Part shown: piece after piece, positions 1-53,160 of the stretch
How the letters are laid out: each line of letters starts with the position of its first letter
Numbering within the stretch: the stretch's first letter is position 1
DNA from: Carettochelys insculpta
Taxonomy: Eukaryota; Chordata; Testudines; Carettochelyidae
DNA length: 64,000 nucleotides
Assembly: GCF_033958435.1 (NCBI RefSeq)
Contig: NC_134137.1
Coordinates: 251,518,501 to 251,582,500, forward strand
Direction: 5' to 3'
Position numbers and translations under genes: made by a program
The notes under the pieces: generated by a model
What the model was told of the DNA's origin: nothing
Database searches by the model: none
The model's input: the letters and a program-made list of their open reading frames with translations, nothing else

Positions 1-941
1 TTATATATTTACAGTTAAAAAAAAAGTTCTGAAAGAAAAACCAGTTTGAGTTCAGCCACAAGTGCGTGCTGTCATTTGTCCAGGAAAAGTGGGAGGGGGG
101 TGCGGTGGGGTGCTCCATGGTGTGGGCGTTGGGGCAGGAGTGTGGTGGAGGAAGGGGCGGGCAGTGGGGGGCCTGGCAGAGTTCACCCCGCGGCCTCATC
201 ATTGAAGTGGGCCCGCAGGGCCTCCCGGACCCGGGTCCCTTTGGGGTCCACCTGCCGACTGGGGGCAGCAGGTGGCTGGACATCTGCCCTGCCGGCCTCC
301 ACAGCCCAGCCCTGGAAAAAGGTGTCCCCCTTGCTCTCCACCAAATTGTGCAGGGCGCAGCAGGCACCCACAATCTGGGGGATGTTGTTGGGGCCCGCAT
401 CCAGGCGGGTCAGGAGACATCTCCAGTGTCCCTTCAGGCGGCCAAATGAGCATTCCACCACCTGGCGCGCATGGTTCAGGCGCTGGTTGAAGCGCTCCTG
501 GCTAGCGGAGAGATGGCCCGTGTACGGGTGCATGAGCCACGGCCGGAGGGGGTATGCCGCATCTGCGATGACGCAGAGGGGCATGGTGGTGTCCCCCAGA
601 GGGATCTCCCGCTGGGGGATGTAGGTCCCCGCCTCCAGCCGGCGGCACAGGCCCGAGTTCCGGAAAACCCGGGCGTCGTGGGTGCTGCCAGGCCAGCCCA
701 CATGAGTGTCCTGGAAACGTCCCCGGCTGTCCACCAAGGCCTGGAGGACGACAGAATGGTAGCCCTTGCGATTCAGTTATCGTCCTCCACTGTGATGCGG
801 GGCGCGGATGGGAATGTGAGTCCCATCCAGAGCCCCGAAGCAGTTGGGGAAGCCCAGGGTGGCAAAGGCCGCGATGGCGGCATCTGGGTCCCCCAGCCTC
901 ACGAGCCTGTGCAGGAGCATGGCGTTGATGGCACGCACAAC

Positions 942-1208
942 CTGCAGAGAAAGCACATGGGACAGCACCAATGAGGGGTGAGCAGGGTGTGCGTGGCCCT
1001 GCCCTGCCCTGCCCTCCCCTGCCCTGCCCTCCTCTGCCCTCCCCCACCCTGGCCTCCCCTCCCCTCCCCTGCCCTCCTCTGCCCGGGCCCCCCTCCCCTG
1101 CCCTGCCCTCCTCTGCCCTCCCCCACCCTGGCCTCCCCTCCCCTCCCCTGCCCTTCTCAGCCCGGGCCCCCCTCCCCTGCCCTGCCCTCCCCCCGTGGGT
1201 TCTCTTAC
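942..1208 (-). repeat. C-rich minisatellite filling the transposase intron (copy A)
   Basis: Imperfect tandem copies of CCCTGCCCTG and CCCTCCTCTG occupy about 989-1195 between consensus splice sites. Long apparent open frames through this block encode only Pro/Cys/Leu- or Gly/Arg-rich repeats and are not proteins. Confidence 0.85.
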
Positions 1209-1669
1209 CTCCATGAGGACAGCCCCGACGGTGGCCTTGCCGACACCAAACTGCTGCCCCACGGATCGGTAGCTGTCTGGAGTGGCCAGCTTCCAGACAG
1301 CGATGCCGACCCGTTTCTCCACAGGGAGGGCATGCCGCATGGCAGTGTCCTGGTGCCTGAGTGTGGGGGTGAGCCACTGGCACAGCTCCATAAATGTCTG
1401 CCGGCTCATCCTGAAGTTCCTGAGCCAGCGGTCGTCGTCCCACTCCCCAAGCACCAGCCGCTCCCACCAGTCGGTGCTGGTGGGGTAGCTCCACAGCCGC
1501 CGGCGTGTGAGGCGGGGGGGTGGGGCGGGGTGCTGCAGGGTTAGGGGTTGAGCCCTGCTGCCCTGGGGGCAGCTCCTCCTCCGGTGTAGCAAGGAGGTGC
1601 TCAGCTGCCTCCCGCATGGCATGGAGCAGAGCAAGCCCTGCTCCTGCCGGGAGGGTTGGGTGGACCTCT

Positions 1670-1676
<7 letters not shown>

Positions 1677-1714
<38 letters not shown>

Positions 1715-1717
1715 GGG
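1677..1717 (-). repeat. CAG repeat (polyglutamine) at transposase N terminus, copy A
   Basis: Fourteen CAG codons directly follow ATG GAC CCC. The homologous tract has 16 units in copy B and 10 in copy C. Confidence 0.9.
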
Positions 1718-2121
1718 TCCATGACTGCGGCGCCCGGGGTCTGTGTGCCTATGGCTCTGCAGACCGCGTGCTGTGCAGGCTGAGTGTGTCTGGGAGGGGC
1801 CCTTTAAGGGAGCGGCTAGCTGTTGGCCCGGAAGCGCTAGTCCGCCCTGTGACCCTGTCTGCAGCTGTGCCTGGCATCCCTATTTCGATGTGTGCTACTT
1901 TGGCGTGTAGACGTTCCCTCGCTGCGCCTATTTCGATGTTGGGCTGCGCAACGTCGAAGTTGAACATCGACGTTGCCGGCCCTGGAGGACGTGTAGACGC
2001 TATTCATCAAAATAGCCTGTTTCGATGTCGCTACATTGAAATTAGCTATTTCGATGTAGCGTGCACGTGTAGACGTAGCCAAGGAATGAGAACCCAGTCC
2101 ACCTTCTCTTTATCAGCCATT

Positions 2122-3166: not shown

Positions 3167-3729
3167 TACAAGTAGTCAGTGAAACAAGGTTTTATGCACT
3201 AACAATATTGCACCAAAGAATACACCTGGTTTATATAATCCCTGATTTCTTATCCTAACAGAAACAAATTCTGCAAAGCCCTGAATTGCTAGAGTCAAAG
3301 GAACAACCTCTCACAACATCTACATTGTTCACCTCCAGATGCTCTTTCCCTCCCCCTATTTCTGTTTGTATCTTTTTTTTGAGGTGGGGTGAGCATACTG
3401 GAACCCAGTTTCCCATCTGAAGCTATGCCATCGATTTACACCGTGGCACTGTGATATTTTCAGTATATGTCCTAATCCAGTGTTTCGAGATTATAGCTTT
3501 TTGTTTGCTTTTTTGGCTGTTGCACAATCAATAGAGGTTTTCCTTGATCTTGGCTGCTCTCTGAATTTGCTATATCTGAAGAAGTGAATGCCATCAGACT
3601 TCCTTGAAGACCATAGTGTAACTAGAGGGGAGCCATTTTGGGGTCCAGGATTGAGTGGGCCTGAGCAGGGTCTTATGAGGAGGGGTTGTCATGTCATGAT
3701 GATTCTGTGGCCAGATAGGATTAAAGTAT
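3167..3729. other. No gene seen (spacer)
   Basis: AT-rich spacer between the pogo-like MITE and the CR1 insertion. No coding, RNA or repeat signal was recognised. Confidence 0.5.
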
Positions 3730-4797
3730 CAACTTGTTCATCAATGATCTAGAAAATGAGGTAAGCAGTGAGGTGGCAAAGTTTGCAGATGACACCAAGT
3801 TGTTCAGGACAGTCAAAAGCAAAAGGGATTGTGAAGAACTACAAAAAGATCTCAGCAAACTGAGTGATTGGGCAGCAAAATGGCAAATGAAATTTAATGT
3901 GGGTAAGTGTAAGGTAATGCATGTTGGAAAAAATAACCCAAATTACACGTACTACATGATGGGGTCAAATTTAGCTACGACAGATCAGGAAAGGGATCTT
4001 GGAGTTATAGTGGATAGTTCTCTGAAGACATCCACGCAGTGTGCAGCGGCAGTTAGTAAGGCAAATAGGATGTTAGGAATTATTAAAAAAGGGATCGATA
4101 ATAAGACAAAAGATATCATACTTCCCCTATATAAAACTATGGTACGCCCACATCTCGAGTACTGCGTGCAGATGTGGTCTCCTCACCTCAAAAAAGATAT
4201 ATTGGCATTAGAAAAGGTTCAGAAAAGGGCGACTAAGATGATTAGGGGCTTGGAAAGGGTCCCATATGGGGAGAGGCTAGAGAGACTGGGACTTTTCAGT
4301 TTGGAAAAGAGGCGATTGAGGGGCGATATGATAGAGGTATATAAAATCATGAATGGTGTGGAGAAAGTGAATATAGAAAAATTATTTACCTTTTCCCATA
4401 ATACAAGAACTAGGGGACACCAAATGAAATTGATGGGTAGTAGGTTCAAAACTAATAAAAGGAAATTTTTCTTCACACAGCGCACAGTCAACCTGTGGAA
4501 CTCCTTGCCGGAGGAGGCTGTGAAGGCCAGGACTCTATTAGGGTTTAAAAAAGAGCTTGATAAATTTTTGCAGGTCAGGTCCATAAATGGCTATTAGCCA
4601 GGGATAAAGTATGGTGCCCTAGCCTTCATAACAAGGGCAGGAGATGGATGGCAGGAGATAAATCACTTGTCTTCTGTTCTCCTTCTCTGGGGCACCTGGC
4701 ATTGGCCACCGTCGGCAGATGGGATGCTGGGCTTGATGGACCTTTGGTCTGACCCAGTATGGCCATTCTTATGTTCTTATGTATGTTCTTATCCTTT
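3730..4797 (+). mobile_element. CR1 LINE, 5'-truncated, copy 1
   Basis: Homology with the CR1 at 13.4-15.2 kb begins abruptly at 3730 (caacttgttcatcaatgatc) and runs without an indel to the tail, at a constant offset of 10,411. The element ends with TTCTTATG octamers, slightly disordered by an inserted TATG. Strong 5' truncation and an octamer tail instead of poly(A) are typical of CR1. By eye only about three base differences separate it from the longer copy, so both insertions are young. Confidence 0.92.
3734..4597 (+). pseudogene. CR1 reverse transcriptase, C-terminal 287 residues
   Basis: An open frame of the CR1 ORF2 protein, which copies LINE RNA into DNA at a nicked target. The start is inside the protein, not a native initiator. 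The fragment begins at FINDLENE, has the catalytic FADDTKLF box near residue 18, and continues through the thumb and C-terminal region ([38 protein letters not shown]) to the stop. It lacks the endonuclease and most of the fingers and palm. The residues are identical to the end of the frame at 13356-15008. Confidence 0.9.
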
Positions 4798-7896: not shown

Positions 7897-7899
7897 AAG

Positions 7900-8580
7900 G
7901 CCGCGTCTACACGTGCATGCTACTTCGAAGTAGTGGCGCCAACTTCGAAATAGCGCCCGTCATGGCTACACGTGTTGGGCGCTATTTCGAAGTTGAAATC
8001 GACATTAGGCGGCGAGACGTAGAAGTCGCTAACCCCATGAGGGGATGGGAATAGTGCCCTACTTCGAAGTTGAACGTCGAAGTAGGGCACGTGTAGACGA
8101 TCTGCGTTCCGCAACATCGAAATAGCGGGGTCCGCCATGGCGGCCATCAGCTGAGGGGTTGAGAGACGCTCTCTCGCCAGCCCCTGCGGGGCTCTATGGT
8201 CACCGTGTGCAGCAGCCCTTAGCCCAGGGCTTCTGGCTGCTGCTGCAGCAGCTGGGGATCCATGCTGCATGCACAGGGTCTGCAACCAGTTGTCGGCTCT
8301 GTGGATCTTGTGTTGTTTAGTGCAACTGTGTCTGGGAGGGGCCCTTTAAGGGAGCGGCTTGCTGTTGAGTCCGCCCTGTGACCTTGTCTGCAGCTGTGCC
8401 TGGCACCCTTATTTCGATGTGTGCTACTTTGGCGTGTAGACGTTCCCTCACAGCGCCTATTTCGATGTGGTGCTACCCAACGTCGAAGTTGAATGTCGAC
8501 GTTGCCAGCCCTGGAGGACGTGTAGATGTTATTCATCGAAATAGACTATTTTGATGTAGCGTGCACATGTAGACGTAGCC
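7900..8580. mobile_element. Internally deleted Harbinger derivative (element D)
   Basis: Ends GGCCGCGTCTACACGTGCA and TGCACATGTAGACGTAGCC are flanked by the 3-bp duplication TAA (7897-7899 and 8581-8583). The left 320 bp match the left subterminal and Myb upstream region of elements B and C (ccatggcggccatcagctg, gttgagagacgctctc). The right part matches the transposase start region (CTGCTGCTGCAGCAG, then gatccat) and the right subterminal region. Both genes are gone. It is a classic deletion derivative that depends on proteins made elsewhere. Confidence 0.88.
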
Positions 8581-9034: not shown

Positions 9035-11504
9035 TCATCTTGATAGACGGTGGTTAGCAGCGGTGGTGAGGATCTCTGGGTAGTGTTTGAGTCTGCAGCT
9101 TCTCTCGTGGCTTATCCATCCAATACTGGATTTGCACGGTCGATTGCAATAACCATGTCTGTCTATTTCGGAATTCTTGAGTCTGAGAGTTTTTCCTTCT
9201 AAGATGAAGTTCTTTGGCATGGTGTGCCCATATGCTATTGAATGATGATGTGCCCTATTGTAGCAATCATCGCCAGGTATTTCAATCTGATGATGTAGAT
9301 TCCCAGGATTTTGGATGGATCGTGAATTTTTTCATGACATTTTTGCATGCATCCACAAATCTTAGGTTTGGTCTTCCTCTTGTTCTCAACACACATGAAA
9401 GTTCACCAAAGAGGATTTCTTGGGGAAGACATTTGTCACCCATTCTTCTCACATGACCAAGTCATTGTAGTCTTCTGCTGTTGAGGATTGCTATCAGGCT
9501 GGATATGCCATATCTTGGTAGGACATCTGCATTTGAAACTTTATCTTGTCAGTTGATATTCATAATTCTGCAGAGGCAGCAAAGATGGAAGCTGTTCACT
9601 TTTTTCTCCTGGTTCAAGTAGGTGGTCCATGCCTCAGAACCAGATGCTAGGTTACTCAATACACACGCTTGGTAACTTAGTATCTTTGTTTTCACTGTCA
9701 GTTTAGGCTTGTTCCATGCTTGTTTTGTAAGTCTGCCAAAATAGTAGCTGCCTTCCCGATTCTGATGTTCAGTTCTCCATCCATGCATAGGTTTGTGGTG
9801 ACAGTAGATCCAAGGTAACAGAATTGTTGAGCCATATCTAATGGGCTGTCATCCAGAATGACATTGGGTCGCTGAGGTATACTTGAGTGAATACAACAGT
9901 TTTCTTCATGTTTATGACAAAGGAAAACAACTTGCAGACTCCAGACAGAGAATCCATCAGTGACTGTACCATGTCTTCATTATGAGAGATAACAGCTGCA
10001 TCATCTGGGAAGAGGAGTTCTCTAATGAGGACGTTCTTGACCTTAGTTTGGCCTTGAATCTTGCCAGGTTGTAGAGAGAGCCATCTAATCTTGTGTGGAG
10101 AAATACATCACTGGGTGAGTTTTTAAATGAGCAATTTAGTAGAACTGAGAAGAACATGCCGAAGAGGGTAGGGGCAAGAACACGCCCTTGTTTTACTCCA
10201 CTGTTCATTGCAAATGGTTCCAATGCAGATCCATCATTTTGAACTGTTGCTTTCATGTTTTCGTGAAAGGATGTTATGAGCTTCAGTGTGCTCGGTGGGC
10301 AGCCAATCCCGGTTAATACTCTGTATAGTCCTGATCTATTAACTGTGTCAAATGCTTTTGTTAAGTCCACAAATGCTATGAGTAACATCTTTTCTTGTTC
10401 TCTGCATTTTTCCTGTGGTAGTCGAAATGAGAAAATCATGTCGATTGTTGGCTGCCGGCCCTGAAGCCACATTGTGTTTCTGGATAGACTCGATCTGTGA
10501 GTTTTTGCAGTCGTTTGAGAATGACACGGGCAAATGCCTTGCATGTGATGCTCAGTAACAAGATGCCTCTGCAGTTGTTGCAGTCACCCCGTCGCCTTTG
10601 TTTTTATAGAGAGTGACGATGTTTGCCTCCTTCATGTGATGTGGGATGTCTCTTGCTATCCAACATTTTACAAGTAAATCATAGAGGAAGGGGAGGAGCA
10701 CAGCTTTGTTTGCCTTCGGGACTTCAACTGGAATTCTGTTGTTTCCCGGTGCTTTGCCATTGGAGAGATCATCAAGAGCTTGAGAAAGTTCCTCCTCCGT
10801 AGGCTCTGCATCTAGCTCATACCTTTTCGGAAGGGTTGGGATGAGGTTGTTAAGTTCAGGTTGTGTTGTACACTCATGGAAATAAAGACTTGAATAGTGT
10901 TCTGCCCATCTGGATATCTGCAGCTTTTTGACTGTGATCACCTGTCCATTTAAATGCTTCAGTGAGGGACTCTGGTAATGTTTGGTCCAAGTGCTTTCTT
11001 CAATCCATCATACATGGTTTTCAGGTCACCCAAATCAGGTGCCTTTTGAATATTAGAACATAGATTGGCCCAATACTTGTTCGCACACCACCTGGATTCT
11101 CTCTGAGGAACAAATCTTGCATGTTGAAGTTGATCTCTTGTGCTTTGAGATGAGTTCTTTATGTTATTCAGATGTACTTTGTGTTTTCCTTCAAGAAGAG
11201 GCCTAAGAATGTCAGCATTTTCATCAATCCAGTCTTTGTTACAGAATTTACATGTTCCAAAGGCAGATTTGGCCCATTCGTATATTGCATCTCTCAGCAT
11301 GGACCATGTTTCATCAGTGATTTGTTGGGCAGGTTTGTGTTCCATTTTGCGAGTGAGATCACCTGTGAAGACTGAGCATTTCAGCGCATCTCTGGTGTTG
11401 AGGATATTGATTACTGACTTATTGTACTCCTTTGTCATATTCCTGTCGCATTGTGTAGACGAGACTGTAGAATAGTAACAGAGAGAAGAGGGTCTGTACC
11501 ACAA
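9035..11504 (-). mobile_element. Decayed non-LTR retrotransposon (non-CR1 type)
   Basis: Minus-strand LINE ORF2 broken into several frames. 11504-10959 and 10941-10552 hold the linker and the start of the RT domain (EEELSQALDDLSNGKAPG, then HHMKEANIVTLYKNKGDG). 10544-9957 holds the RT core (LLIAFVDLTKAFDTVNRSGL; SGVKQGRVLAPTLFGMFF). 9788-9549 holds the connection region (GRLTKQAWNKPKLTVKTKI), followed by a stretch near 9480-9400 that reads like a WLGHV-type motif when frames are shifted. The expected FADD box is scrambled. The clade is uncertain. It is the same family as the fragment at 50843-51357. Confidence 0.75.
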
Positions 11505-11564
11505 AAGCTCACCTAATAAATTATTTTGCTAGTCTTTAAAGTGCTACTTGACTGCTTTTTGTTT
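11490..11564 (+). repeat. Dispersed repeat fragment, same family as 8781-8863
   Basis: Text accacaaaagctcac...ttgctagtctttaaagtgctac followed by a T-rich end. Confidence 0.55.
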
Positions 11565-12599: not shown

Positions 12600-13355
12600 A
12601 TACGTTGGGGGTTGGGAAAGGAGTTGGGAGACGTGGGCCCCCTATGCTCCACCAGGTCACAGCCCAGGGCCCTGCCAGTGGTGGGGGTGGCCCACTACTG
12701 ACTTGATGGGGGCTCCAACTGAAACACACCAAATTACCAGGGAATGTTCCCTTCCCCGGGTTGCTTCCTGTCTGCCTTCCCAGTCATCCTTTGTGATGTC
12801 CCTTACTGGCATGGGGATTCACCAGTCATCCTTGGCTGACTAGCCTCTGTGGTGTGGTCTGCAGGCAGATCCCTCTCTGGAGTCCCACAGGCACCTCCTT
12901 CCCTGGCAATGGCCAGCCCTGACTGACCAGCTCCACAGGCCTTCATAGCAAGGGTGAACAAATTTCTTACTTCAGGTCCCACTTTTTCATTACTGCAATG
13001 AGCAACTCCCACTTGTCTAATGTGATCTAAAAAAATGGAAATTTCAGTTATGGTCATATGAAAAAAAGCCTTTCCATGTATGGAAGAAAATAAATCTGTA
13101 GAATGTAAAAACTTTATTAATCAGTATATAAATGTGAACACACATATGTAAAAACAGATGAACCTGAGACCAAGCTGCTGATTGTACTGTGCCTCCCTTA
13201 TGAAATTTCATGTCCCGCCCCCACTTTGTGCACCCCTACCTACAGCTGGGAACATGACCAGCAAGGCTGTAGGGATGGTGCCTCCTTGGCCAGGTGAGCT
13301 AAATTAGCCTGCTCTGACTCAATGCAGGGTTGATACAGCCCATCACACTACCCAA
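12600..13355. other. No gene seen
   Basis: GC-moderate sequence rich in cctt/ggga words. It contains a short repeated phrase ccagtcatcctt at about 12780 and 12811. No recognised coding capacity. Confidence 0.4.
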
Positions 13356-15008
13356 ATGTATACTTTGAGACTCTCTGCAATCCTACCAAATCCCTTGGCA
13401 TGTCCAGAATACAAACAACCATACGGGCCAAAGCAGACTCCTGTAAATCACATTCAAATGCACAACAAATCTGAGGAACTCACTCAGATTGAAGTGACAT
13501 TAGAGGAGGTTTTGGAATTAATTGATAAGCTGAATAGTAACAAGTCTCCAGGACCAGATGGCATTCACCCAAGGGTTCTGAAAGAACTCAAATGTGAAAT
13601 TGCGGAGTTATTAACAGTGGTTTGTAACCTATCCTTTAAATCCACTTTGGTACCAAATGACTGGAAGACGGCCAATATAACACCAATATTTAAAAAAGGC
13701 TCTAGAGGAGATCCTGGCAATTATAGACCGATAAGTTTAACATCAGTACCAGGTAAATTAGTAGAAACACTAGTAAAGAGTAAAATTGCAAGGCACATAG
13801 AAGAGCACGAATTGTTGGGCAAAAGTCAGCATGGTTTCTGCAGAGGGAAGTCGTGTCTGTCTAATCTATTAGAATTCTTTGAAGGGGTTAATAAACATGC
13901 GGACAAGGGGCACCCAGTGGACATAATATACCTAGATTTCCAGAAAGCCTTTGACACGGTCCCACACCAAAGGCTTTTATGTAAATTAGGTGGTCATGGG
14001 ATAGGAGGAAAGGTCCTTTCATGGATCGGGAATTGGTTAAAAGACAGAAAACAAAGGGTTGGAATAAATGGTAAATTTTCACAATGGAGGGGGGTAACTA
14101 GTGGTGTTCCCCAGGGCTCAGTCCTGGGACCGATCCTGTTCAACTTGTTCATCAATGATCTAGAAAATGAGGTAAGCAGTGAGGTGGCAAAGTTTGCAGA
14201 TGACACCAAGTTGTTCAGGACAGTCAAAAGCAAAAGGGATTGTGAAGAACTACAAAAAGATCTCAGCAAACTGAGTGATTGGGCAGCAAAATGGCAAATG
14301 AAATTTAATGTGGGTAAGTGTAAGGTAATGCATGTTGGAAAAAATAACCCAAATTACACGTACTACATGATGGGGTCAAATTTAGCTACGACAGATCAGG
14401 AAAGGGATCTTGGAGTTATAGTGGATAGTTCTCTGAAGACATCCACGCAGTGTGCAGCGGCAGTTAGTAAGGCAAATAGGATGTTAGGAATTATTAAAAA
14501 AGGGATCGATAATAAGACAAAAGATATCATACTTCCCCTATATAAAACTATGGTACGCCCACATCTCGAGTACTGCGTGCAGATGTGGTCTCCTCACCTC
14601 AAAAAAGATATATTGGCATTAGAAAAGGTTCAGAAAAGGGCGACTAAGATGATTAGGGGCTTGGAAAGGGTCCCATATGGGGAGAGGCTAGAGAGACTGG
14701 GACTTTTCAGTTTGGAAAAGAGGCGATTGAGGGGCGATATGATAGAGGTATATAAAATCATGAATGGTGTGGAGAAAGTGAATATAGAAAAATTATTTAC
14801 CTTTTCCCATAATACAAGAACTAGGGGACACCAAATGAAATTGATGGGTAGTAGGTTCAAAACTAATAAAAGGAAATTTTTCTTCACACAGCGCACAGTC
14901 AACCTGTGGAACTCCTTGCCCGAGGAGGCTGTGAAGGCCAGGACTCTCTTAGGGTTTAAAAAAGAGCTTGATAAATTTTTGCAGGTCAGGTCCATAAATG
15001 GCTATTAG
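13356..15008 (+). pseudogene. CR1 ORF2 fragment with complete RT domain
   Basis: A 550-codon open frame with all RT blocks in order: [19 protein letters not shown], then [88 protein letters not shown] (catalytic Asp pair) and the thumb and C-terminal part [14 protein letters not shown]. The N-terminal APE-type endonuclease is missing, so this copy cannot move by itself. The first methionine may belong to flanking DNA. No stop or frameshift is present over at least 500 codons, so the insertion is recent. Confidence 0.93.
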
Positions 15009-15208
15009 CCAGGGATAAAGTATGGTGCCCTAGCCTTCAGAACAAGGGCAGGAGATGGATGGCAGGAGATAAATCACTTGTCTTCTGTTCTCCTTCTCTG
15101 GGGCACCTGGCATTGGCCACCGTCGGCAGATGGGATGCTGGGCTTGATGGACCTTTGGTCTGACCCAGTATGGCCATTCTTATGTTCTTATGTTCTTATG
15201 TTCTTATG
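13356..15208 (+). mobile_element. CR1 LINE, longer copy 2 (young)
   Basis: A 5'-truncated CR1 whose 5' edge lies somewhere in 13356-13480. It ends in at least four TTCTTATG octamers at 15177-15208. The 3' UTR contains gggcttgatggacctttggtctgacccagtatggcc, a signature I associate with turtle CR1. The last 1.05 kb is nearly identical to 3730-4797. Confidence 0.92.
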
Positions 15209-20725: not shown

Positions 20726-20728
20726 CTT

Positions 20729-20990
20729 AGCTGCGTCTACACGTGCACGCTACTTCGAAGTAGCGGCACCAACTTCGAAATAGCGCCCGTCACGTCTACA
20801 CGCGTCGGGCGCTATTTCGAAGTTAACTTCGACGTTAGGCGGCGAGACGTCGAAGCCGCTAACCTCATGAGGAGATAGGAATAGCGCCCTACTTCGACGT
20901 TCAACGTCGAAGTAGGGACAGTGTACACGATCCGCATCCCGCAACGTCGAAATTGCCGGGTCCTCCATGGCGGCCATCAGCTGGGGGGTT
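20729..20990. promoter_or_regulatory. Left subterminal region with TTCGAA/ACGTCGA motif cluster
   Basis: Within 260 bp, motifs such as cttcgaagtag, cttcgaaatag, atttcgaagtt, acttcgacgtt, cgtcgaag and caacgtcgaa recur in both orientations. Equivalent clusters occur in elements C and D and, as TTTCGATG words, at the right ends. They are plausible binding sites for the Myb-like protein or the transposase. That role is inference. Confidence 0.5.
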
Positions 20991-21036
20991 GAGAGACGCT
21001 CTCTCCAGCCCCTCAGCTCACTGGTGGCCGCATGGA

Positions 21037-21062
21037 GCGGCCCCTTAAAGGTCCCCTCCCCC
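21037..21062 (+). promoter_or_regulatory. Putative promoter motif of the Myb-like gene
   Basis: CCCCTTAAAGGTCCCCTCCC lies about 100 bp upstream of the ATG at 21151. Nearly the same string (CCCTTAAAGGGCCCCTCCC) lies upstream of the opposing transposase gene at 25411-25430 on the minus strand. Confidence 0.5.
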
Positions 21063-21150
21063 GCCCTGACTGCAGGAGGCTGAGGCAACGTGCAGGCTGC
21101 AGCCTGCACACGCGGGCAGCCTGCCGAGCCCTCAGCCCCTGAGACTGGCG

Positions 21151-23223
21151 ATGGCTGCCCAGCAGCCCCCCCAGCACCCCCAGGGGACCCCCCCCAAGGG
21201 GAGCCAGGGCAGCCAGCCGAGCCAGAAGACCTGCCAGTCTGGGAAGCGGCAGCGGGGCCCCTCCTGGACGGAGGCCGAGCTGCGGGACCTGCTGGGGCTC
21301 TGGAGCGAGGAGGAGGTGCTCCAGGTAATGGGGAGCAAGAGGCGGAATGCGGATGCGTTCGGTCGGCTGGCCGACGGCCTGGCTGCCCGGGGTCACCCTG
21401 CCCGCACTCCGGACCATGTCCGGAGTAAGGTCAAGGAGCTGCGGCAGGGTTATGCCCGGGCCCGGGATGCGGCCAGCCGATCTGGGGCCGCCCCTGTCAC
21501 TTGCCCCTTTTACAGGGAGCTCAGGGACATCCTGGGCCCCCGGCACACCTCCTCCCCTCCGGCCACCCTTGACACCTCGGCTGACAAGCCCCAGCAGGCC
21601 CTGCAGCTGGAGTCCGACCCGGAGGCAAGCCCCGCACCCCGGGGGCCCCCCCCGGAGGCCATCCCTGGGACATCGCGGCAGGAGGAGGAGGAGGAGGAGG
21701 AGGGGGGCTCCTCCTCCGCAGAATCCAGCCTGCAGATGCTCCTCCTGCCATCCCGGAGCAGCAGCAGGGCCTCCGACCCCCGGGGATCTCCGGACCGTGG
21801 GAGCGGACCCACAGGTAGGTACCCCTCTCTGGTGGACACCCCGGGGCTGGAGGGGCAGGGGTAACAGAGATGTGTCCAGGGCCCCCCACACGCTCACATG
21901 GCCGTGGCCCCAAGGACACCAGGGCCATGGCCCTCACAGCACTGCAGCCATCAGCCCCTGCCCCCCCTCACCCTGCATGACAGTGCCATGCCCCATCCCC
22001 GGGCCAGGGGGGAGCGGAACCTCGAGGGGCCCCCGGGCGGAGGGGGTGGGACACCCCGCAGCAGCAGCATGTGATGGAGTGGGGGGAGTGCCAAAGGGAG
22101 ACTCAGCCTACATATGAGCCACCCGAGCCGAGGAGCTCCCAGGGCCAAAGGAGGATCCTGGGGCTACAGCTGGCAGGTGACACCTCTGCCCTGAGCAAAC
22201 AGGGGGGAGGAGCCGAGCTGGCTTGGAATTGGGGGGCGAGGGCGGGGGCCACAGGTAGAGGCTAGGGGAAGGGAGAGCTGGAAGGCAGCCAGCCTGAGGA
22301 GGGGGAAAGCTGCATCCCAGAGGGGCCCCCCTTGGGGTCCTCTCCCCACGACGGGTTGGAAGGACTGTCTCTTCCGACAGCTGGTGCTGTCACTCCTGGG
22401 AGAAACTGGGCATCTGTGGCCTAAGAAACCTCTCCTGCTCTCAGACCCTGCAGGGTGAAGTGAGAGTCGCTCCCACCAGGGGACGGGGTGCAGGGCAGGG
22501 GGACCCCTGAACCCCATCCATCACAGCAGCATCTCCCGGGGACGGGGATGGGGAACCTGCAGCACAGGGCCGGGGGGACAAAGGCCACGGCTCGGGGCCC
22601 ACACTAACGCCTGTCTCCATTCTTCTTTCCCCCCTCCTCTGCTGTGTCCTGCACCTGCACCCGCACCATCCGAAGGACCGGAAGAGAGCGCTGGCGAGGC
22701 CTCGGTTGTCCCGGAGAGCCCTCCGGGACCCTCGCTCCAGGGCAGCCCCTCGGCCGAGGAACGACCGGCCCCGCGGAGGGCCAGACGGCGGACCCCGCGC
22801 CTGCTACCGGCGGCGGCCACGGACCCCCAGCTGCTGGCCATCCTCCGCCGGCAGCTGGAAGTGTCGGAGCAGCACCTCCGGCTGCAGGAGCAGGCGCTGG
22901 CCTGGCGCAGGGAGGCATGGGGGGCCTATATGGAGACCATCAACCGGCTGGTCGACTACCTGGCCCCCCATGCCGCGCCGGCCGAGCCACCGCCCGCCAT
23001 GCCCGCTCCTGCAGCCCCACCACCAGCTGCTCCAGCCGTCGCCGGGCCGTCCGCCATCGCCCCACCACCTCCCCGCGAGGGCCACCGCGCTGAGGGACCC
23101 CTGGAGCCACCCGAGACTCGCCGGCGCCGCTACCTTCCGGTGAAGCCCGCTCCCACCCAGCCGCGGACCAGACTGCAGGCCCGGCGGAGCTCCCGGCCGG
23201 GCACACCCACTGCTGGGCTGTAG
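21151..23223 (+). CDS. Harbinger Myb/SANT-like DNA-binding protein (two exons, intact)
   Basis: Partner protein of Harbinger transposons; in characterised systems it binds subterminal sites and helps bring the transposase to DNA in the nucleus. Exon 1 is 21151-21814 (CAG|GTAGGT donor) and exon 2 is 22676-23223. Together they give 404 codons with the stop and no internal stop. The trihelix/Myb-like domain spans roughly residues 34-106: GPSWTEAELRDLLGLW, VMGSKRRNADAFGRLADGL, TPDHVRSKVKELRQGYARAR. It is followed by CPFYRELRDILG, an acidic run (EEEEEEEGG), a Ser-rich segment and a C-terminal amphipathic region (ILRRQLEVSEQHLRLQEQAL) with a Pro/Ala-rich tail. The acceptor used in element C is mutated here (CTGCAC), and the next AG (22674-22675) restores the frame. 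The ATG is the one conserved with element C. Confidence 0.82.
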
Positions 23224-23397
23224 GGGCGAGGGGCCCGGGACGTGGCCCCCCCCCTTGTTGGACAGACTTTGGGGACTGCTTTATGTTGGTGCCCCTGTTT
23301 GCCCCGTCCCCCCCCTGTAAATAGTTCTCCCCATTCTCCTCCCTGCTTTTCTTTTTTGTTGATGGCGCACAGTTCTTTGCTTTGTTGTTGTATATTG

Positions 23398-23480
23398 TTT
23401 TATTTGTGCACATCTTGCTTTTGTTGAACGTTTGTCCCTCCTTTTTGGTTTCTGTTTCACATATTTATTTATTTACAAAA
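23398..23480 (-). terminator. Possible poly(A) signals of the transposase gene
   Basis: Minus-strand AATAAA words occur at about 23398-23403 and again in the tatttatttattt block at 23461-23474, 170-250 bp past the transposase stop codon. No signal as clear was found for the opposing gene. Confidence 0.4.
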
Positions 23481-24407
23481 AAAAAAAAAAATTCGTTAAG
23501 ACAAAAAAAACATTTACGTTCACCCACAAGTTCGTGCTGTCATTTCTCCTGGACAAGTGGGGGGGGGCGGTGGGGTGCTCCATGGTGTGGGCGTTGGGGC
23601 AGGAGTGTGGGGGAGGAAGGGGAGGGCAGTAGGGGGCCTGGGCAGAGTTCACCCCGCGGCCTGTTGCTCGAAGTGGGCCCGCAGGGCCTCCCAGACCCGG
23701 GTCCCCTCTGGGTCCACCTGCCGACTGGGGGCAGCAGGTGGCTGCACGTGTGCCCTGCCGGCCTCGGCGGCCCAGCCCTGAAGAAAGCTCTCCCCCTTGC
23801 TCTCCACGAGGTTGTGCAGGGCGCAGCAGGCACCCACAATCTGGGGGATGTTGTTGGGGCTGGCATCCAGGCGGGTCAGGAGACATCGCCAGCGTCCCTT
23901 GAGGCGGCCAAATGAGCGCTCCACCACCTGGTGCGCACGGTTCAGGCGCTCGTTGAAGCGCTCCTGGCTGGCGGAGAGGTGGCCCGTGTAGGGGCGCATG
24001 AGCCACGGCCGGAGGGGGTAGGCCGCATCCGCGATGATGCAGAAGGGCATGGTGGTGTCCCCCAGAGGGATCTCCCGCTGGGGGATGTAGGTCCCCGCCT
24101 CCAGCCGGCGGCACAGGCCCAAGTTCCGGAAAACCCGGGCGTCGTGGGTGCTGCCAGGCCAGCCCACGTAAATGTCCTGGAACCATCCCCGGCTGTCCAC
24201 CAAGGCCTGCAGGACGACTGAATGGTAGCCCTTCCGATTGAGGTATCGGCCTCCACTGTGATGCGGGGCGCGGATGGGGATGTGAGTCCCATCCAGAGCC
24301 CCGAAGCAGTTGGGGAAGCCCAGGGTGGCAAAGGCGGCGACAGTGGCATGTGGGTCCCCCAGCCTCACGAGCCTGTGCAGGAGCATGGCGTTGATGGCAC
24401 GCACGAC

Positions 24408-24824
24408 CTGCAGAGAAAGCACATGGGACAGCCCCAATGAGGGGTGAGCAGGGTGTGCGTGGCCCTGCCCTGCCCTGGCCTGCCCTGGCCCCCCTGCCCT
24501 GCCCTGCCCTACCCTGGCCTGCCCTGCCCTGGCCTGCCCTGCTCTGCCCTGGCCTGCCCTGGCCCCCCTGCCCTGCCCTGCCCTGCCCTGCCCTGCCCTG
24601 GCCTGCCCCGCTCTGCCCTGCCCTGCCCTGCTCTGGCCCCCCTGCCCTGCCCTGCCCTACCCTGCCCTGCCCTGGCCCCCCTGCCCTGCCCTGCCCTACC
24701 CTGGCCTGCCCTGGCCCCCCTGCCCTGCCCTGCCCTGCCCTGCCCCCCCTGCCCTGCCCTGCCCTACCCTGGCCTGCTCTGGCCCCCCTGCCCTGCCCTG
24801 GCCTCCCCCTGTGGGTTCTCTTAC
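24408..24824 (-). repeat. Expanded CCCTG minisatellite inside the transposase intron (copy B)
   Basis: About 350 bp (24460-24810) of CCCTGCCCTG, CCCTGGCCTG and CCCCCCTG units between proper splice sites. Higher-order runs such as ctggcccccctgccctgccctgcc recur. The intron is 417 bp here, against 267 bp in A and 128 bp in C. Confidence 0.88.
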
Positions 24825-25279
24825 CTCCATGAAGACAGCCCCGACGGTGGCCTTTCCGACACCAAACTGCTGCCCCACGGATCGGTAGCTGTCCGGAGTG
24901 GCCAGCTTCCAGACAGCGATGCCGACCCGTTTCTCCACAGGGAGGACACGCCGCATGGCAGTGTCCCGGTGCCTGAGTGCGGGGGTGAGCCACTGGCACA
25001 GCTCCAGGAATGTCTGGCGGGTCATCCTGAAGTTCCTGAGCCAGTGGTCGTCGTCCCACTCCCCAAGCACCAGCCACTCCCACCAGTCGGTGCTGGTGGG
25101 GTAGCTCCACAGCCGCCGGCGTGTGAGGCGGGGGTGGGGCGGGGTGCTGCAGGGGTAGGGGCTGAGCCCTGCTGCCCTGGGGGCATCTCCTCCCCTGGGG
25201 CAAGAAGGTGCTCAGCTGCCCCCAACATGGCATGAGCCAGGGCAAGCCCTGCTCCTGCCGGGAGGGCTGGGTGGACCTC

Positions 25280-25281
25280 TA

Positions 25282-25330
<49 letters not shown>
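25280..25330 (-). repeat. CAG repeat (16 units) at transposase start, copy B
   Basis: CAG codons directly follow ATG GAC CCC. This is the longest of the three copies. Confidence 0.9.
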
Positions 25331-25331
<1 letters not shown>

Positions 25332-25407
25332 GGGTCCATGACTGCGGCGCTCGGGGTCTGTGTGCCTATATGGCTCCTCAGACCGCGTGCTGTGCAGGCT
25401 GAGTGTA

Positions 25408-25432
25408 TGTGGGAGGGGCCCTTTAAGGGAGC
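25408..25432 (-). promoter_or_regulatory. Putative promoter motif of the transposase gene
   Basis: On the minus strand CCCTTAAAGGGCCCCTCCC lies about 80-90 bp before the ATG at 25339. It is conserved at 1796-1815, 8335-8355 and 42160-42182 in the other copies. Confidence 0.5.
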
Positions 25433-25825
25433 GGCTAGCTGTTGCCCCGGAAGCGCTAGTCCGCCCGTTGACCCTGTCTGCAGCTGTGCCTGGCATCCCT
25501 ATTTCGATGTGTGCTACTGTGACGTGTAGACGTTCCGTCGCTGCGCCTATTTCGATGTTGGGCTGAGCAACGTCGACGTTGAACATCGACGTTGCCGGCC
25601 CTGGAGGACGTGTAGACGTTATTCATCGAAATAGTCTATTTCAATGTCGCAACATCGAAATAAGCTATTTCGATGTTGGCTGCACGTGTAGACGTAGCCC
25701 TTGTGTTTCTTATTCAAGCAAAACCTTTAGGGACACATTTCTAAGCCATTCGGGTGACTAAAAGTGCAGATAGATGCTCAATGACATTTGTCTAACGTGC
25801 CTACGTGCAAAACTCTAGTGGATGT

Positions 25826-38057: not shown

Positions 38058-38442
38058 GGCCATGTCTACCCTAGCCCCAAACTTCAAAATAGCCATGCAA
38101 ATGGCCATTTCAAAGTTTACTAATGAAGCGCTGAAATGCATATTCAGTGCTTCATTAGCATGCAGGCGGCCGCAGCACTTCGAAATTGACGTGCCTCACT
38201 GCAGCGCGTCTCATCCCGACGGGGCTCATGGGAATAAGGGGACTTCGAAGTAGGCGGGCTCCTTTCGAAAAGGAGCCCCGTTGGGACAAGCCACGCGGTA
38301 GCGAGCCACGTCAATTTTGAAGTGCCGCGGCCACCCACATGTTAATGAAGCACTGAATATGCATTTCAGTGCTTCATTAGTAAACTTTGAAATGGACATT
38401 TGCGTGGCTATTTCGAAGTTTGGGGCTAGTGTAGACGTAGCC
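38058..38442. mobile_element. Palindromic MITE, centre partly deleted
   Basis: Ends GGCCATGTCTACCCTAGCCCC and GGGGCTAGTGTAGACGTAGCC are flanked by TAT on both sides (38055-38057 and 38443-38445). The right arm starts at 38224 and is 219 bp. The left arm is 166 bp, having lost about 52 bp next to the centre. It is the same family as 2122-2398 and 42458-42893. Confidence 0.88.
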
Positions 38443-38933
38443 TATAAGTTTGAAAGTTGGTCCAATTAAAGATATTAGCTCACCCACCTTGTCTCTCTAG
38501 CCGCGTCTACACGAGCCGGCTACTTCGAAGTAGCCGTGCCAACTTCAAAATAGCGCCCGCCGCGTCTACATGTGGCAAGCGCTATTTCGAAGTTGAAATC
38601 GACGTAAGGCGGCGAGACATCAAAGTCGCTATCCCCAACAGGAGATGGGAATAGTGCCCTACTTTGACGTTGAACATCGAAGTAGGGCACGTGTAGATGA
38701 TCCACTTCCCGCAACATCGAAATAGTGGGGTCCTCCATGGCGGCCATCAGCTGAGGGGTTGAGAGACGCTCTCTCCAGCCCCTGAGCTATATGGTTGCTG
38801 CGTGCAGCAGCCACTTAAAGCTCCCTGCCCCCTTATTTCCTGTGCAGGAAGCTGAGAGCTCATGCAGGCAACAGCACAGCCACGTGCTCAGCCTGCACGT
38901 CTCTCAGTAGCAGCAGCACGCCACCCTGCACTG

Positions 38934-40431
38934 ATGGCAGCCAGCCAGCCCCCCAAGCGCCCCCAGAGCACCCCCCCCAAGGGGACTCAGGGCTCCCAGG
39001 CTGGCAGCCAGTGGGGGAAGAGGCAGCGGGGCCCCTCCTGGACAGAGGCCGAGATCCAGGACCTGCTGGGGCTCTGGGGCGAGGAGGAGGTGCTCCAGGT
39101 AATGGGGAGCAAGAGGTGGAACGCAGATGCGTTCGCTCGGCTGGCCGAGGGCCTGGCTGCCCGGGGTCACCCTACCCTCACTCCTGACCACGTCAGGAGT
39201 AAGGTCAAGGAGCTGCGGCAGGGTTACGCCCGGGCCCGGGATGTGGCCAGCCGATCTGGGGCCGCCCCCACCACTTGCCCCTTTTACAGGGAGCTCAGGG
39301 CCATCCTGGGCCTCCAGTACACCTCCTCCTGCCACCTGGCCACTCTTGACACCTCAGCCGACGAGACCCAGCAGGCCCCAGAGACGGAGTCCACCCCGGA
39401 GGCAAGCCCTGCACCACAGGGGCCCCCCCGAAGCCCACCCCTGGGATGCCAGAGGAGGAGGAGGGGGAGTCTGCCAGTGATGGGGGGCTCCGCATTGCCC
39501 TCCCGTCCCGCAGCTCCAGCAGGGCGTCCGCCCAATGGGTGTCCCCCGAACATGGGAGCGGACTGTCAGGTATGTACCCCCCCGGTGCACACATGAGACA
39601 TGACCAGGGCCCTCCACACGCCCAGATGACAATGGCCCCAAGGACAGCAATGGCATGTCCCTCAGAAGAGTGCATCAGCCCCTTTCCCCCCCAGCAGGAC
39701 AGCGTCATGCTCCATCCCTGGGGATGGGGGGAGCGGAACCTAGGGTCCCCTGTGGGGGGGGTGGGACACCCATCAGCAGCAGCAGCATCTCCAGGGGATG
39801 GGGAACCAGTAGCAGAGGGGTGGGGGGACAAGGGCCACGGGTCAGGGCCCACACTAACGGCTGTCTCCGTTCTTGTTCCCCCCTGTGTTCTGCAGCTGCA
39901 CCATTGGAGGGCCCGGAGAGCACCGGCGAGGTGTCCGTGGTCCCAGACAGCCCACCGGGGCCATCCCACCAGGCCAGCCCCTCGGCGGAGCACCGACCAG
40001 CCCCAGGACGAGGCCGATGGAGGAGCCACCTGCGGACGGCCATGGACCCCCAGCTGCTCACGACCCTCCGCCGTCAGCTGGAGGTGTCGGAGCGGCACCT
40101 GCAGGTGGAGGAGTGGTGGCTAGAGCTCCAGGAGTCAGCGCTGGCCTGGCGCCAGGAGGCTTGGAGGGCCTTCATGTGCACTTTCAACCGCATTGCGCAG
40201 CACCTGACCCTGCCTGCTGCTCCGCCCGCCGCTCTGCCTGCTGCGCCACCCGCCACTCCACCTGCCGTCCCTGCACCGTCCGCCACCCTGGGGCCTGCCG
40301 CCAAGGGGGACCATGGGCCTGCGGACACCAGCCGGCTGTATTTGCCGGTTCTCCCGGCCCCCATCCAGCCTCGACCAGGGCTCCGGCCGAGACATGGGTC
40401 GTGCCCCCCAACACCGGGCGCTGGACATTAG
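38934..40431 (+). pseudogene. Harbinger Myb/SANT-like protein, copy C (frameshifted)
   Basis: Exon 1 is 38934-39569 (CAG|GTATGT) and exon 2 is 39896-40431 (TGCAG acceptor). The Myb-like domain is intact: GPSWTEAEIQDLLGLW, VMGSKRWNADAFARLAEGL, TPDHVRSKVKELRQGYARAR, CPFYRELRAILG. A C7 tract at 39423-39429 has one C fewer than the homologous C8 tract of element B. This moves the acidic segment (MPEEEEGESASDGG) out of frame. The spliced length is 1172 nt, and one more base would make it 391 codons. Exon 2 keeps LLTTLRRQLEVSERHLQVEE. The only visible lesion is this 1-base change. Confidence 0.85.
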
Positions 40432-40728
40432 GGTGCGGGGCTGAGGACGTGGCCCACCCCCCCTTTGTACATATTCCCCCATTTGTAAATAGTTTTTGTT
40501 GGACCCCTGTTTTAGTAGCTGCCCCCCATGTACATAGTTCCCCCCTTTTCTTCTGTTAATAACAAGGTTGCACAGTTTTGTTTGAAACAACATTTCCATT
40601 TATTTCAAAGAAAAGTGTGGGGGTGTGCACTCTCTGGTGCTCTATGGTGTGGGCGTGGGGGCAGGGAGTGTTGTGGAGGATGGGGGGGGTGCAGTGGGTG
40701 GCTCGCCCGCAGCTGGCCCTGCCAGCGT

Positions 40729-42055
40729 TCACCCTGCAGCCTGGTCGAAATGGACCCGCAGGGCATCCCAGACCCGGCTCCCCTCAGGGTCGACCTGGCG
40801 ACTGGGGGCAGCGGGTGGCTGGATGTCAGCCGTGCCAGCCTCCACAGCCCAGCCCTGGAAGAAGGCCTCTCCCTTGCTCTCCACCAGGTTGTGGAGTGTG
40901 CTGCACGCGCCCACAACCTGGGGGAGGTTGGTGAGGCCTGCATCCAGGCGGGTGAGGAGACACCTCCAGTGCCCTTTGAGGCGGCCGAAAGTGCGCTCGA
41001 CCACCTGGTGCGCATGGTTCAAGCGCATGTTGAACTGCTCCTGGCTGGCTGTGACATGGCCTGTGTAGGGGTGCACAAGCCAGGGCCGGAGGGAGTACGC
41101 CGCGTCTGCAACAACACAGAGGGGCATGGTGGTGTTCCCCACAGGGATCTCCCGCTGGGGGATGTAGGTCCCCGCCTCTAGCCAGTGGCACAGGCCCGAA
41201 TTTCTGAACACCCGGGCATCATGGGTGCTGCCAGGCCAGCCAACATAATTGTCCAGGAAGCAGCCCCGGCTGTCCACCAAGGCCTGGAGGACCACGGAAT
41301 GGTATCCCTTCCTATTGAGGAAGCGTCCTCCGCTGTGCTCCGGGGCATGGATGGGGATATGGGTCCCATCCAGAGCTCCAAAGCAATTTGGGAAACCCAG
41401 GCTGGCAAACCCCGCGATGGCAGCATCTGGGTCCCCAAGCTGCACGAGCCTGTGGAGGAGCAGGGCATTGATTGCACAGATGACCTGCAGGGGAAGGACA
41501 TGAGAGAGCACCAGTGAGGGGTGTGCAAGGTGTGTCTGGCCCTCCACCCCCCGGGCTCCTCCCTCCCCCCGAGGGCTGCCCCCCCAGGGCTCCCCCCCCC
41601 AGGTCCTCTTACCTCCATGAGGACAGCCCCAATGGTGGCCTTGCCCACGCCGAACTGCTGCCCTATGGATCGGTAGCTGTCTGGAGTGGCCAGCTTCCAG
41701 ACAGCGATGCCAACCCATTTCTCGACAGTGAGGGCACGTCGCATGGAGGTGTCCTGGTGCCATAAGGCAGGGGTGAGTCACTGGCAGAGCTCCAGGAAAG
41801 TCTGCTGGCTCAACCAGAAATTCCGGAGCCAGTGGTCATTGTCCCACTCACCGAGCACCAGCTGCTCCCACCAGTCCAGTGTGTGCAGCAGGGGGGTGGG
41901 GGGGAGCGGGGGCTGGGAGGGCAGCAAGGTCTGGGCCTGCTTCCTCATCCCCTGGGGGCAGCTCATCTTCCTCAAATAAAAGATGGTCAGCTGCCTCCTG
42001 CATGGCACTGAGCAGGGCAAGCACTGCTCCTCCAGGGGCAGCTGTGTGGACCTCT

Positions 42056-42088
<33 letters not shown>

Positions 42089-42096
42089 GGTTCCAT
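40729..42096 (-). pseudogene. Harbinger DDE transposase, copy C (disabled)
   Basis: Exon 1 is 42096-41613 (MEP plus 10 Gln; LDWWEQLVLGEWDNDHW; VEKWVGIAVWKLATPDSYRS) and exon 2 is 41484-40729 (GALDGTHIPI, VVADAAYSL, VVERTFGRLKGHW). The intron is only 128 bp (41612-41485) and lacks the CCCTG array. Defects are a 1-base frame change in the G-tract region 41891-41904 and a TGG-to-TGA stop at 41778-41780, right after FLELCQ. Exon 2 is fully open. Confidence 0.9.
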
Positions 42097-42457
42097 GGTG
42101 CTTCCATGGGGTGTGCGTGCTTGTGGCTCTGCAGACCGCGTGCTGTGCAGGCTGCATGTGTCTGGGAGGGGCCCTTTAAGGGAGTGACTTGCTGTTGCCC
42201 GGGAAGTAATAGTCCACCCTGTGACCCTGTCTGCAGCTGTTGCCGGCACCCGTATTTCGATTTGGGCCGCTTTGGTGTGTAGACGCTCCCCTGCAGCACC
42301 TACTTCGATGTGGTGCTACCCAACGTCGACGTTGAACGTCGATGGCACCAGCCCTGGAGGAAGTGTAGATGCTATTCATTGAAATAGCTTATTTCGATTT
42401 CGCTACATCGAAATAAGCTATTTCGATGTAGCATCCCCGTGTAGACGTAGCCTCTAT

Positions 42458-42893
42458 GGCCGTGTCTACACTAGCCCCAAACTTCGAAATAGCCACGCAA
42501 ATGGCCATTTCGAAGTTTACTAATGAAGCGCTGAAATGCATATTCAGCACTTCATTAGCACGCGGGCGGCCGCGGCACTTCGAAATCGACGTGCCTCGCC
42601 ACCGTGCAGCTCGTCCCGGCGGGGCTCCTTTTCAAAAGGACCCCGCCTACTTCGAAGTCCCCTTATTCCCATGAGCTCATGGGAATAAGGGGACTTCGAA
42701 GTAGGCGGGCTTCTTTCGAAAAGGAGCCCCGTCGGGACGAACCGCGCTGCGGTGAGGCGTGTCGATTTCGAAGTGCCACGGCTGCCCGCGTGCTAATGAA
42801 GTGCTGAATATGCATTTCAGCGCTTCATTAGTAAACTTCGAAATGGCCATTTGTGTGGCCATTTCAAAGTTTGGGGCTAGTGTAGATGTAGCC
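42458..42893. mobile_element. Complete palindromic (foldback) MITE, 436 bp
   Basis: Two 218-bp arms meet exactly at the centre ATGAG|CTCAT (42675/42676) and are reverse complements along nearly their whole length. The ends are GGCCGTGTCTACACTAGCCCC and GGGGCTAGTGTAGATGTAGCC. TAT flanks both sides (42455-42457 and 42894-42896). The left TAT shares its first T with the TCT duplication of element C, so the two elements touch. Confidence 0.92.
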
Positions 42894-52085: not shown

Positions 52086-53160
52086 TCGGTGGGAGATCAC
52101 CTGTGGGCCCTCACCCTGGCTGCAGGAACTACACACCTGCATCCACCCTCCCCGGTGCAAAGGTGGCTCTGGATGCACCGTACCAGTTCAGACTGGTGGG
52201 GCCAGCAGGTCATGGACCACTGGGATGACGAGCACTGGTTCCAAACCACCTTGAGATCTGTGCCTGACTCACCCCTGCCCGCTGGAGATGCTACACCCAG
52301 CTGCAGCTTACCATCCCCAAGGAGAAGTGGGTTGCAATTGCCCTCTGGAAGCTTGCCACCCCCAACAGCTACTGGTTGGTTGGCAGCCAGTTTAGTGTAG
52401 GGAAGTCCACCGTCAGGGCCATCCTCATGAAGGTAACACAGCCTTGGGCTGCAGTCTGCACAGGGGCAGGGGCCACGCCCTGCTAAGGAGGCACCCTCAG
52501 GCAGCGAGGTTGGAGGGTGTGAAGGGTGGAGGAGAGTGCAGGTGAGGCCCCATCCCCAAGGGATCATGCCATCCCGCCCTCACACAGCCCTGCTGCTGGG
52601 GGACAGTCTCACAGGGTGGGTCCCAGACAGCTTGGGGGGAGTGGATGGTAAGGGGCTGGGAAACCCCCCCAAGGGCCCAGGCACTCCCTCCCTCAGTCCT
52701 GACATGTGTGTTCATTCACCTCCCGCTGCAGGTGATGAGGACCATCAACTTGATCCTGCTGTGGAGGGTCATCCATCTGGGGGACCTTGACTAGGTTGTG
52801 GCTGGATCTGCTGCCCTGGGGCTCCCAAACGGCATTGGGACTATCAGCGGGACCCATATCCCAATCCATGCCCTGGAGCATAGCACAACCAAGTTCATCA
52901 ACAGGAAGGGCTACTTCTCCATGGTGCTGCAAGCCCTGGTCAGCCACCATGGACTGTTCGTAGACATTTATGTCAGGTGGTCGGGCAGGGCGCACGACCT
53001 CCACGTGTTCCACAATTCCAGCCTGTGCCAGAAGCTGGAGTCAGGCACATTCATCCCCTGATGTGAGCTGGCTGTTGGCGATGTGCAGATGCCCACCTTC
53101 ATCATGGGGGACATGGCCTACTCCTTCATGCTGTGAATCATTCACGCAACACATCCCCTG
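52086..53160 (+). pseudogene. Old divergent Harbinger transposase fossil
   Basis: A plus-strand relative of the three transposases. Exon 1-like text covers about 52190-52432 (EKWVAIALWKLATPNSY, then VGKSTVRAILMK, in shifting frames). An intron of 299 bp (52433-52731; aag|gtaaca and tgcag|gtgatg) follows at the same place as in A, B and C. Exon 2 continues MRTINLILLWRVIHLGDLD, stop, then 52798-53061 with GTHIPIHALEHS, NRKGYFSMVLQALV and IYVRWSGRAHDLHVFHN, and after another stop MGDMAYSFML. The first catalytic Asp is lost (ISGTHI in place of LDGTHI). Several stops and frameshifts mark it as ancient. Confidence 0.85.

Follow-up and report, generated by a model that had tools for sequence, protein, structure and literature searches.

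The 64,000-nucleotide stretch of Carettochelys insculpta DNA analysed here (the window; contig NC_134137.1, positions 251,518,501 to 251,582,500) contains a Harbinger transposon of 4971 bp, the focal element, at 20729-25699 on the plus strand. CTT is found directly outside both of its ends (20726-20728 and 25700-25702) as a target-site duplication. The 5' terminal inverted repeat, AGCTGCGTCTACACGTGCAC, lies at 20729-20748; its 3' partner at 25680-25699 reads GGCTACGTCTACACGTGCAG on the minus strand. These repeats are 20 bp long, and the first base of the 5' repeat is A in the focal element and in an older relative within the window (copy 3), and G in four miniature elements. The element is G+C rich (66.8%, vs 41.8% in 37.8 kb of other window sequence) and has a higher CpG observed/expected ratio (0.52 vs 0.22 in the same 37.8 kb). 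It carries two convergent genes: a Myb/SANT gene on the plus strand and a transposase gene on the minus strand. Both introns have GT/AG borders. AATAAA/ATTAAA hexamers are present downstream of the transposase only; two overlapping AATAAA follow its stop codon (23464-23473, minus strand), and neither AATAAA nor ATTAAA occurs on the plus strand from 23224 to the end of the element. A first-pass annotation had described a near-intact autonomous-type Harbinger with convergent spliced genes. That description is supported, and the ends and the CTT duplication lie where it had placed them.

Exon 1 of the Myb/SANT gene begins with an ATG at 21151, ends at 21814 and holds the Myb_DNA-bind_4 domain (PF13837; E 3.3e-12, residues 38-126). 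It is followed by an 861-bp GT...AG intron (21815-22675) and by exon 2, which runs to the stop codon (22676-23223). The gene had been recorded earlier as open and Myb/SANT-like; after splicing it is indeed open, over 403 amino acids. Scoring of the 7990 candidates sharing most words gave 55 Myb matches, 42 of which align across residues 200-250, where exon 1 joins exon 2. Among 12 proteins inspected, the join is identical in P0121-P0124, P0126 and P0131 and slightly different in P0125 and P0130. A structure model of exon 1 contains four helices and has a mean pLDDT (predicted local distance difference test) of 62.6, which is high over the domain only. Its best fold match is the DNA-binding domain of Arabidopsis GT-1, with a Foldseek probability of 0.96 but a weak E of 0.8; none of the 42 matches in this search had an E of 0.001 or better.

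The transposase is encoded by two exons, here called B (25211-24825) and C (24407-23652), which join on the minus strand into a frame of 381 amino acids. Exon B is an open frame with no ATG before residue 63. Exon C encodes the catalytic DDE_Tnp_4 domain (PF13359; E 5.3e-41), and the stop codon lies just below 23652. Residues D39, D127 and E163 of exon C, which we take to be catalytic from the pattern of the family, are all present, in agreement with the first reading; they are found in 34, 34 and 29 of 34 aligned rows, including the focal element. The intron between the exons (24408-24824, 417 bp) keeps its GT/AG borders in all three large copies in the window, namely the focal element, copy 1 (a close relative) and copy 3. 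Most of the focal intron is occupied by a GCCCT array of about 71 units (24462-24808); judged from the intron borders, the introns of copies 1 and 3 are shorter.

Protein relatives of the transposase were compared as the best 120 of 1168 matches, from a protein set clustered at 90%, which is a biased sample. At residue 75 of exon C, W is seen in the focal element alone; 27 of the 34 rows have R here, 4 have H and 2 have C, and none of the 120 relatives has W. Two further residues, rare among relatives, were considered as private changes of the focal element: H at 159, where 25 of 34 rows have R, and W at 239, where R is found in 22 of 34 rows, 6 have gaps and W occurs in 3 of 92 relatives. They were ruled out, as copy 3 has both letters. 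Sequence searches of the PDB with a single sequence returned only Repressor protein CI (E 0.5), which is unconvincing, and searches with two alignments returned no match.

An open frame that begins with MDPQ and contains poly-Gln lies upstream of exon B (25136-25339, minus strand) and is the probable N-terminus of the ancestral transposase. The poly-Gln is encoded by a perfect GCT/CAG microsatellite of 16.3 units (25282-25330), the repeat number of which varies between copies. At a C tract (25130-25134, minus strand), which varies in length between copies, the MDPQ frame falls out of step with that of exon B. Thus the Myb gene is open and the transposase frames are broken, so that uninterrupted coding of both proteins, which is expected of an autonomous element, is not found in the focal copy, unless the transposase starts downstream. 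The focal element keeps its open Myb frame but probably cannot now make a full transposase. The first-pass annotation took one base of the C tract to be the only visible defect. The frame break is present in the assembled sequence, where it may also be an assembly error; the rest of the claim did not hold, given the W at residue 75 that only the focal element has and a loss of register that affects all three large copies.

The shared loss of register raises the possibility, which we consider real but rather doubtful, that the transposase of the focal subfamily does not include the MDPQ frame. The protein would then start at the first ATG of exon B or in another upstream frame, and the C tract would be no defect. 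In copy 1, exon B is continuous with another upstream frame, the one in which the annotated protein P0001 begins; local alignments start at the exon B methionine (query position 63) in 11 of the 120 relatives. No protein carrying the MDPQ segment was found, with no homologue of residues 19-66 among 314 candidates. However, the MDPQ frame is still protein-like in the focal element, copy 1 and copy 3, and the sole length difference among them between the CAG repeat and the C tract is three bases. The Chrysemys transposase P0010 also has about 80 residues ahead of the shared WW motif. Moreover, the C tracts of the focal element and copy 1 do not differ in length by a whole number of codons, and therefore one of them, if not both, is shifted under every model. 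The offset in copies 1 and 3 is not the same as that of the focal element because the C-tract stretch varies in length. Either the C tract is a hotspot or the protein start lies elsewhere.

Both ends of the element contain arrays of 12-bp imperfect palindromes centred on TCGA, for example TACTTCGAAGTA and AACATCGAAATA. There are eight in the 5' subterminal array (20751-20954), which includes two inverted repeats (20771-20795/20800-20824 and 20887-20901/20903-20917), and seven in the 3' array (25500-25677), which includes one (25624-25647/25652-25675). The outermost 272 bp at the 5' end hold 8 TCGA cores and the outermost 220 bp at the 3' end hold 7, vs 3 in 4400 internal bp. Six end stretches, drawn from the focal element, copy 1, copy 3 and a 682-bp deleted derivative in the window, were each shuffled 300 times with dinucleotide composition preserved, and the observed TCGA count was never attained. 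The maxima for the focal ends were 6 (5') and 5 (3'); for the derivative, which has 12 TCGA in the 663 bp scanned (7899-8561), the maximum was 6. The arrays are therefore the best candidates for sites of the Myb protein, by analogy with related elements described below.

Self-comparison of the window located further elements of this kind. Copy 1 (1-2080, plus strand) is a close relative of which the window edge leaves only the 3' part, and it has a stop codon in exon C. Copy 3 (38499-42452, plus strand) is the older relative; it has both ends, a TCT/TCT duplication and a stop codon in exon B. For copy 1, Kimura two-parameter distances from the focal element are 0.096 over the exon C region and 0.064 over exon B and the 3' end; for copy 3 the corresponding values are 0.270 and 0.246. 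The 682-bp derivative (7899-8580, plus strand) resembles a miniature inverted-repeat transposable element: it is internally deleted and retains both ends and the motif arrays, with a TAA/TAA duplication. A second miniature family with related ends is present at 38058-38442, 42458-42893 and 2122-2398 (the last one shorter), with duplications TAT, TAT and ATT. The 5' duplication of the miniature element at 42458-42893 (42455-42457) overlaps the 3' duplication of copy 3 (42453-42455) by one base. The focal element and these six relatives amount to 12785 bp, about 20% of the window. An old, heavily mutated Harbinger transposase fragment with stop codons, left out of this figure, lies at 52146-53141; its transposase matches (52146-53121) have about 52% protein identity to exon C.

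The 682-bp derivative is flanked by direct repeats at 3729-4792 and 14140-15207, which are 99.3% identical over 1068 bp. These were considered as the long terminal repeats of a young provirus. This was rejected, as open reading frames and Pfam searches gave reverse-transcriptase frames of the type found in long interspersed nuclear elements (LINEs); a recent date for the derivative was therefore dropped. RVT_1 is matched in the longer frame with E 1e-35, and the second copy sits in a 566-residue stop-to-stop open frame (13308-15008). The pair suggests a young LINE, presumably CR1-like. Another LINE-like stretch at 9957-11528 (minus strand) has three overlapping open frames, with an RVT_1 match of E 5e-12 for 9960-10583.

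All six window elements that have both ends are flanked by perfect 3-bp duplications (CTT, TCT, TAA, TAT, TAT and ATT). Terminal inverted repeats with 3-bp target duplications, a DDE_Tnp_4 transposase with D, D and E, and a Myb/SANT-like second gene are features of the PIF/Harbinger (PHIS) superfamily, and all are found here. The duplication stated for the PIF/Harbinger group in the narrow sense is TWA (PMC4482050), and one of the six (TAA) fits; that of the focal element is CTT. The element is therefore a member of the PIF/Harbinger (PHIS) superfamily outside the narrow TWA group. Other members of the superfamily also make 3-bp duplications: those of NuwaI, NuwaII and Pangu are given as CWG, TNA (within C-TNA-G) and ANT, which differ from the set in the window, and NuwaI and NuwaII have the same two domains as the focal element (PMC4482050).

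Substitutions in exon C suggest that the lineage was coding for some time. With copy 3 as the outgroup, the branch to the focal element has 15 replacement and 12 silent changes, a ratio of nonsynonymous to synonymous rates (dN/dS) of 0.43, and the branch to copy 1 has 10 and 11 (dN/dS 0.31). These counts are small, with 7 changes unresolved and 2 codons with gaps. In view of these ratios, much of the divergence between the focal element and copy 1 appears to date from a time when the lineage still coded for protein. No stop codon is found in the 403 Myb and 381 transposase codons of the focal element. In a simulation, 784 codons stay free of stops with a chance of 0.25 at 1% non-CpG divergence and 0.03 at 2%, where CpG sites were assumed to mutate eightfold and transitions to outnumber transversions two to one. 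In a Myb tree of 14 rows (the focal element and 13 of the 55 matches), the focal branch is the shortest, at 0.025. In an exon C tree of 15 rows, the focal element groups with P0003 (support 100/98). On balance, these sequence comparisons indicate that the focal element is a fairly young copy.

Whether the family is also active is another question. It had been suggested that the family may be recently or currently active. Recent activity in a broad sense is plausible from the dN/dS of 0.43, the shortest Myb branch and the unbroken codons. Present mobility in Carettochelys insculpta, in which near-identical copies would supply transposase and insertions would be polymorphic, is unlikely. It is favoured by the open Myb frame and full catalytic exon of the focal element, by its short Myb branch, by the selection on its exon C and by full-length Myb genes annotated in Carettochelys, such as P0121 and P0125. 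However, among the focal element and the Carettochelys proteins compared (11 transposase, 49 Myb), no pair from separate loci exceeds 95.1% protein identity over at least 150 (transposase) or at least 100 (Myb) aligned residues. Copies at least 97% identical are absent among the proteins compared; the best separate loci have 94.5% (exon C) and 95.1% (Myb exon 2). P0006 and P0007 are 98.8% identical and are named isoforms of one gene. Stop codons in copies 1 and 3, and the 70 changes in 1785 columns on the focal branch since its split from copy 1, also speak against present mobility.

Among the matches listed, relatives of both proteins come almost entirely from turtles. The nine best transposase matches, and 11 of the best 120 in all, are from Carettochelys; 108 others have names of other turtles and one is nameless, so that by reading of names 119 of 120 are turtle proteins. 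Among the 55 Myb matches, 49 are from Carettochelys and 6 from Pelodiscus. The earlier remark that intact Harbingers are uncommon in amniotes is thus unfit for turtles, on this protein evidence, as Harbinger transposases that look intact are frequent in their protein sets; the focal element is ordinary for them. Among the closest proteins are P0003 (94.5% identity over 253 exon C residues), P0122 (94.2% over 360 Myb residues) and P0138 (95.1% over Myb exon 2). Unlike the focal element, these Carettochelys relatives are separate predicted genes, some of them named as isoforms of host genes and many partial or chimeric. Other turtles (Chrysemys, Caretta, Chelydra, Gopherus, Pelusios, Pelodiscus and others) also have DDE_Tnp_4 transposases, with 51-62% identity among the matches listed; they belong to another family or split from the focal one much earlier. 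The exon C tree includes a Chrysemys and a Pelodiscus row, which are separate from the 13 window and Carettochelys rows (support 99/98).

DNA elements make up 310 Mb, or 14.23% of total length, in the Carettochelys genome paper; the word Harbinger is absent from its main text (PMC10960847). Turtle Harbingers are present in Repbase (PMC9179366). A search of titles and abstract openings, which extends neither to Repbase nor to most subscription journals, gave no description of the focal family and no paper on Harbinger together with Carettochelys.

Two-gene elements with a DDE transposase and a Myb-like protein have been described in zebrafish (Harbinger3_DR) and rice (Ping/Pong), and both proteins are needed there; the Myb-like protein of Harbinger3_DR binds a 9-bp subterminal motif and is required for nuclear entry of the transposase (PMC9710019, PMC2836001). 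The motif of the focal element differs, being a 12-bp TCGA-centred palindrome in arrays of 7-8; the comparison is made on described features. The same holds for Harbinger-Snek of sea kraits (Laticauda), a two-gene amniote Harbinger that also has solo-ORF (single open reading frame) and short non-coding variants. It was acquired horizontally within 15-25 million years, and one species has 269 intact copies of it, another a single one (PMC8437027), whereas the focal family has older and younger subfamilies in layers and related transposases in many turtles.

Taken together, the focal element is very probably a little-degraded, autonomous-type PIF/Harbinger transposon from a fairly young subfamily that spread under coding selection, and a two-protein mechanism can be proposed for it. 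The Myb/trihelix protein of the spliced plus-strand gene would bind the TCGA motif arrays at both ends. By analogy with Harbinger3_DR and Ping/Pong, it may bring about nuclear entry of the minus-strand DDE transposase and guide it to the element ends. The transposase would cut at the 20-bp terminal repeats and insert the element with a 3-bp stagger, of which the duplications are the visible trace. The same machinery would mobilise miniature derivatives keeping only the ends, and elements of this anatomy are present in the window.

Several observations weigh against this interpretation. Its youth is challenged by the branch since the split from copy 1, which has 70 changes for the focal element and 43 for copy 1 (copy 3 as outgroup, 23 more unresolved), and by the exon C tree, in which P0003 (0.022) and copy 1 (0.029) have shorter branches than the focal element (0.034). 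No large copy in the window has the MDPQ frame in register with exon B, and five of the six duplications do not match the TWA of PIF/Harbinger (PMC4482050). Structure prediction for exon C is also poor, with a mean pLDDT of 44.6.

A number of predicted Carettochelys proteins join host and Harbinger sequence. Among the 11 Carettochelys transposase matches, five proteins from four genes carry between 147 and 373 foreign residues, fused to exon C at its first codons: P0003 (GLCCI1), P0005 (ANKRD13C), P0006/P0007 (tectonic-3) and P0009 (unnamed). Eight of the 55 Myb matches, all from Carettochelys, fuse 15 to 169 foreign residues at query positions 215-222; the fusion points are at the start of exon 2 or at most 7 residues before it, and five of the eight are at 221-222. 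A host domain or name is recognisable in P0138 (EF-hand), P0140 (RING), P0156 (LRRC2) and P0163 (COA8); the others are P0143, P0150, P0154 and P0173. In these gene predictions the fusion points thus lie at or beside both 3' splice acceptors. Because the genes are convergent, and both finish with a large 3' exon that follows a splice acceptor, one acceptor is in the sense direction whichever way the element lands in an intron of the host. It is possible, and we propose it tentatively from predicted sequences, that the family acts as a gene trap in either orientation, in which the sense 3' exon (the catalytic exon or Myb exon 2) would be spliced onto host exons. Harbinger-Snek insertions have been reported in sea krait exons (PMC9179366); the kind of event is therefore known, and it is the two-way layout that would be new.

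Host-named chimeric proteins predicted from other loci, together with the open Myb frame, might also be taken to mean that one or both element genes now serve the turtle. Such domestication is highly improbable: ends, duplications and related copies all persist, as expected of a transposon but not of a domesticated gene.

One stretch of turtle DNA thus holds a well-preserved two-gene Harbinger, a miniature derivative and older relatives. It provides a starting point for work on how long turtle DNA transposons remain mobile, on the end motif read by the Myb protein and on the capture of host exons by a convergent gene layout. If the gene-trap proposal is true, both genes of a single family have given rise to fusion genes, and the turtle genome would make many host-Harbinger fusion proteins, of which some would retain the whole catalytic domain.

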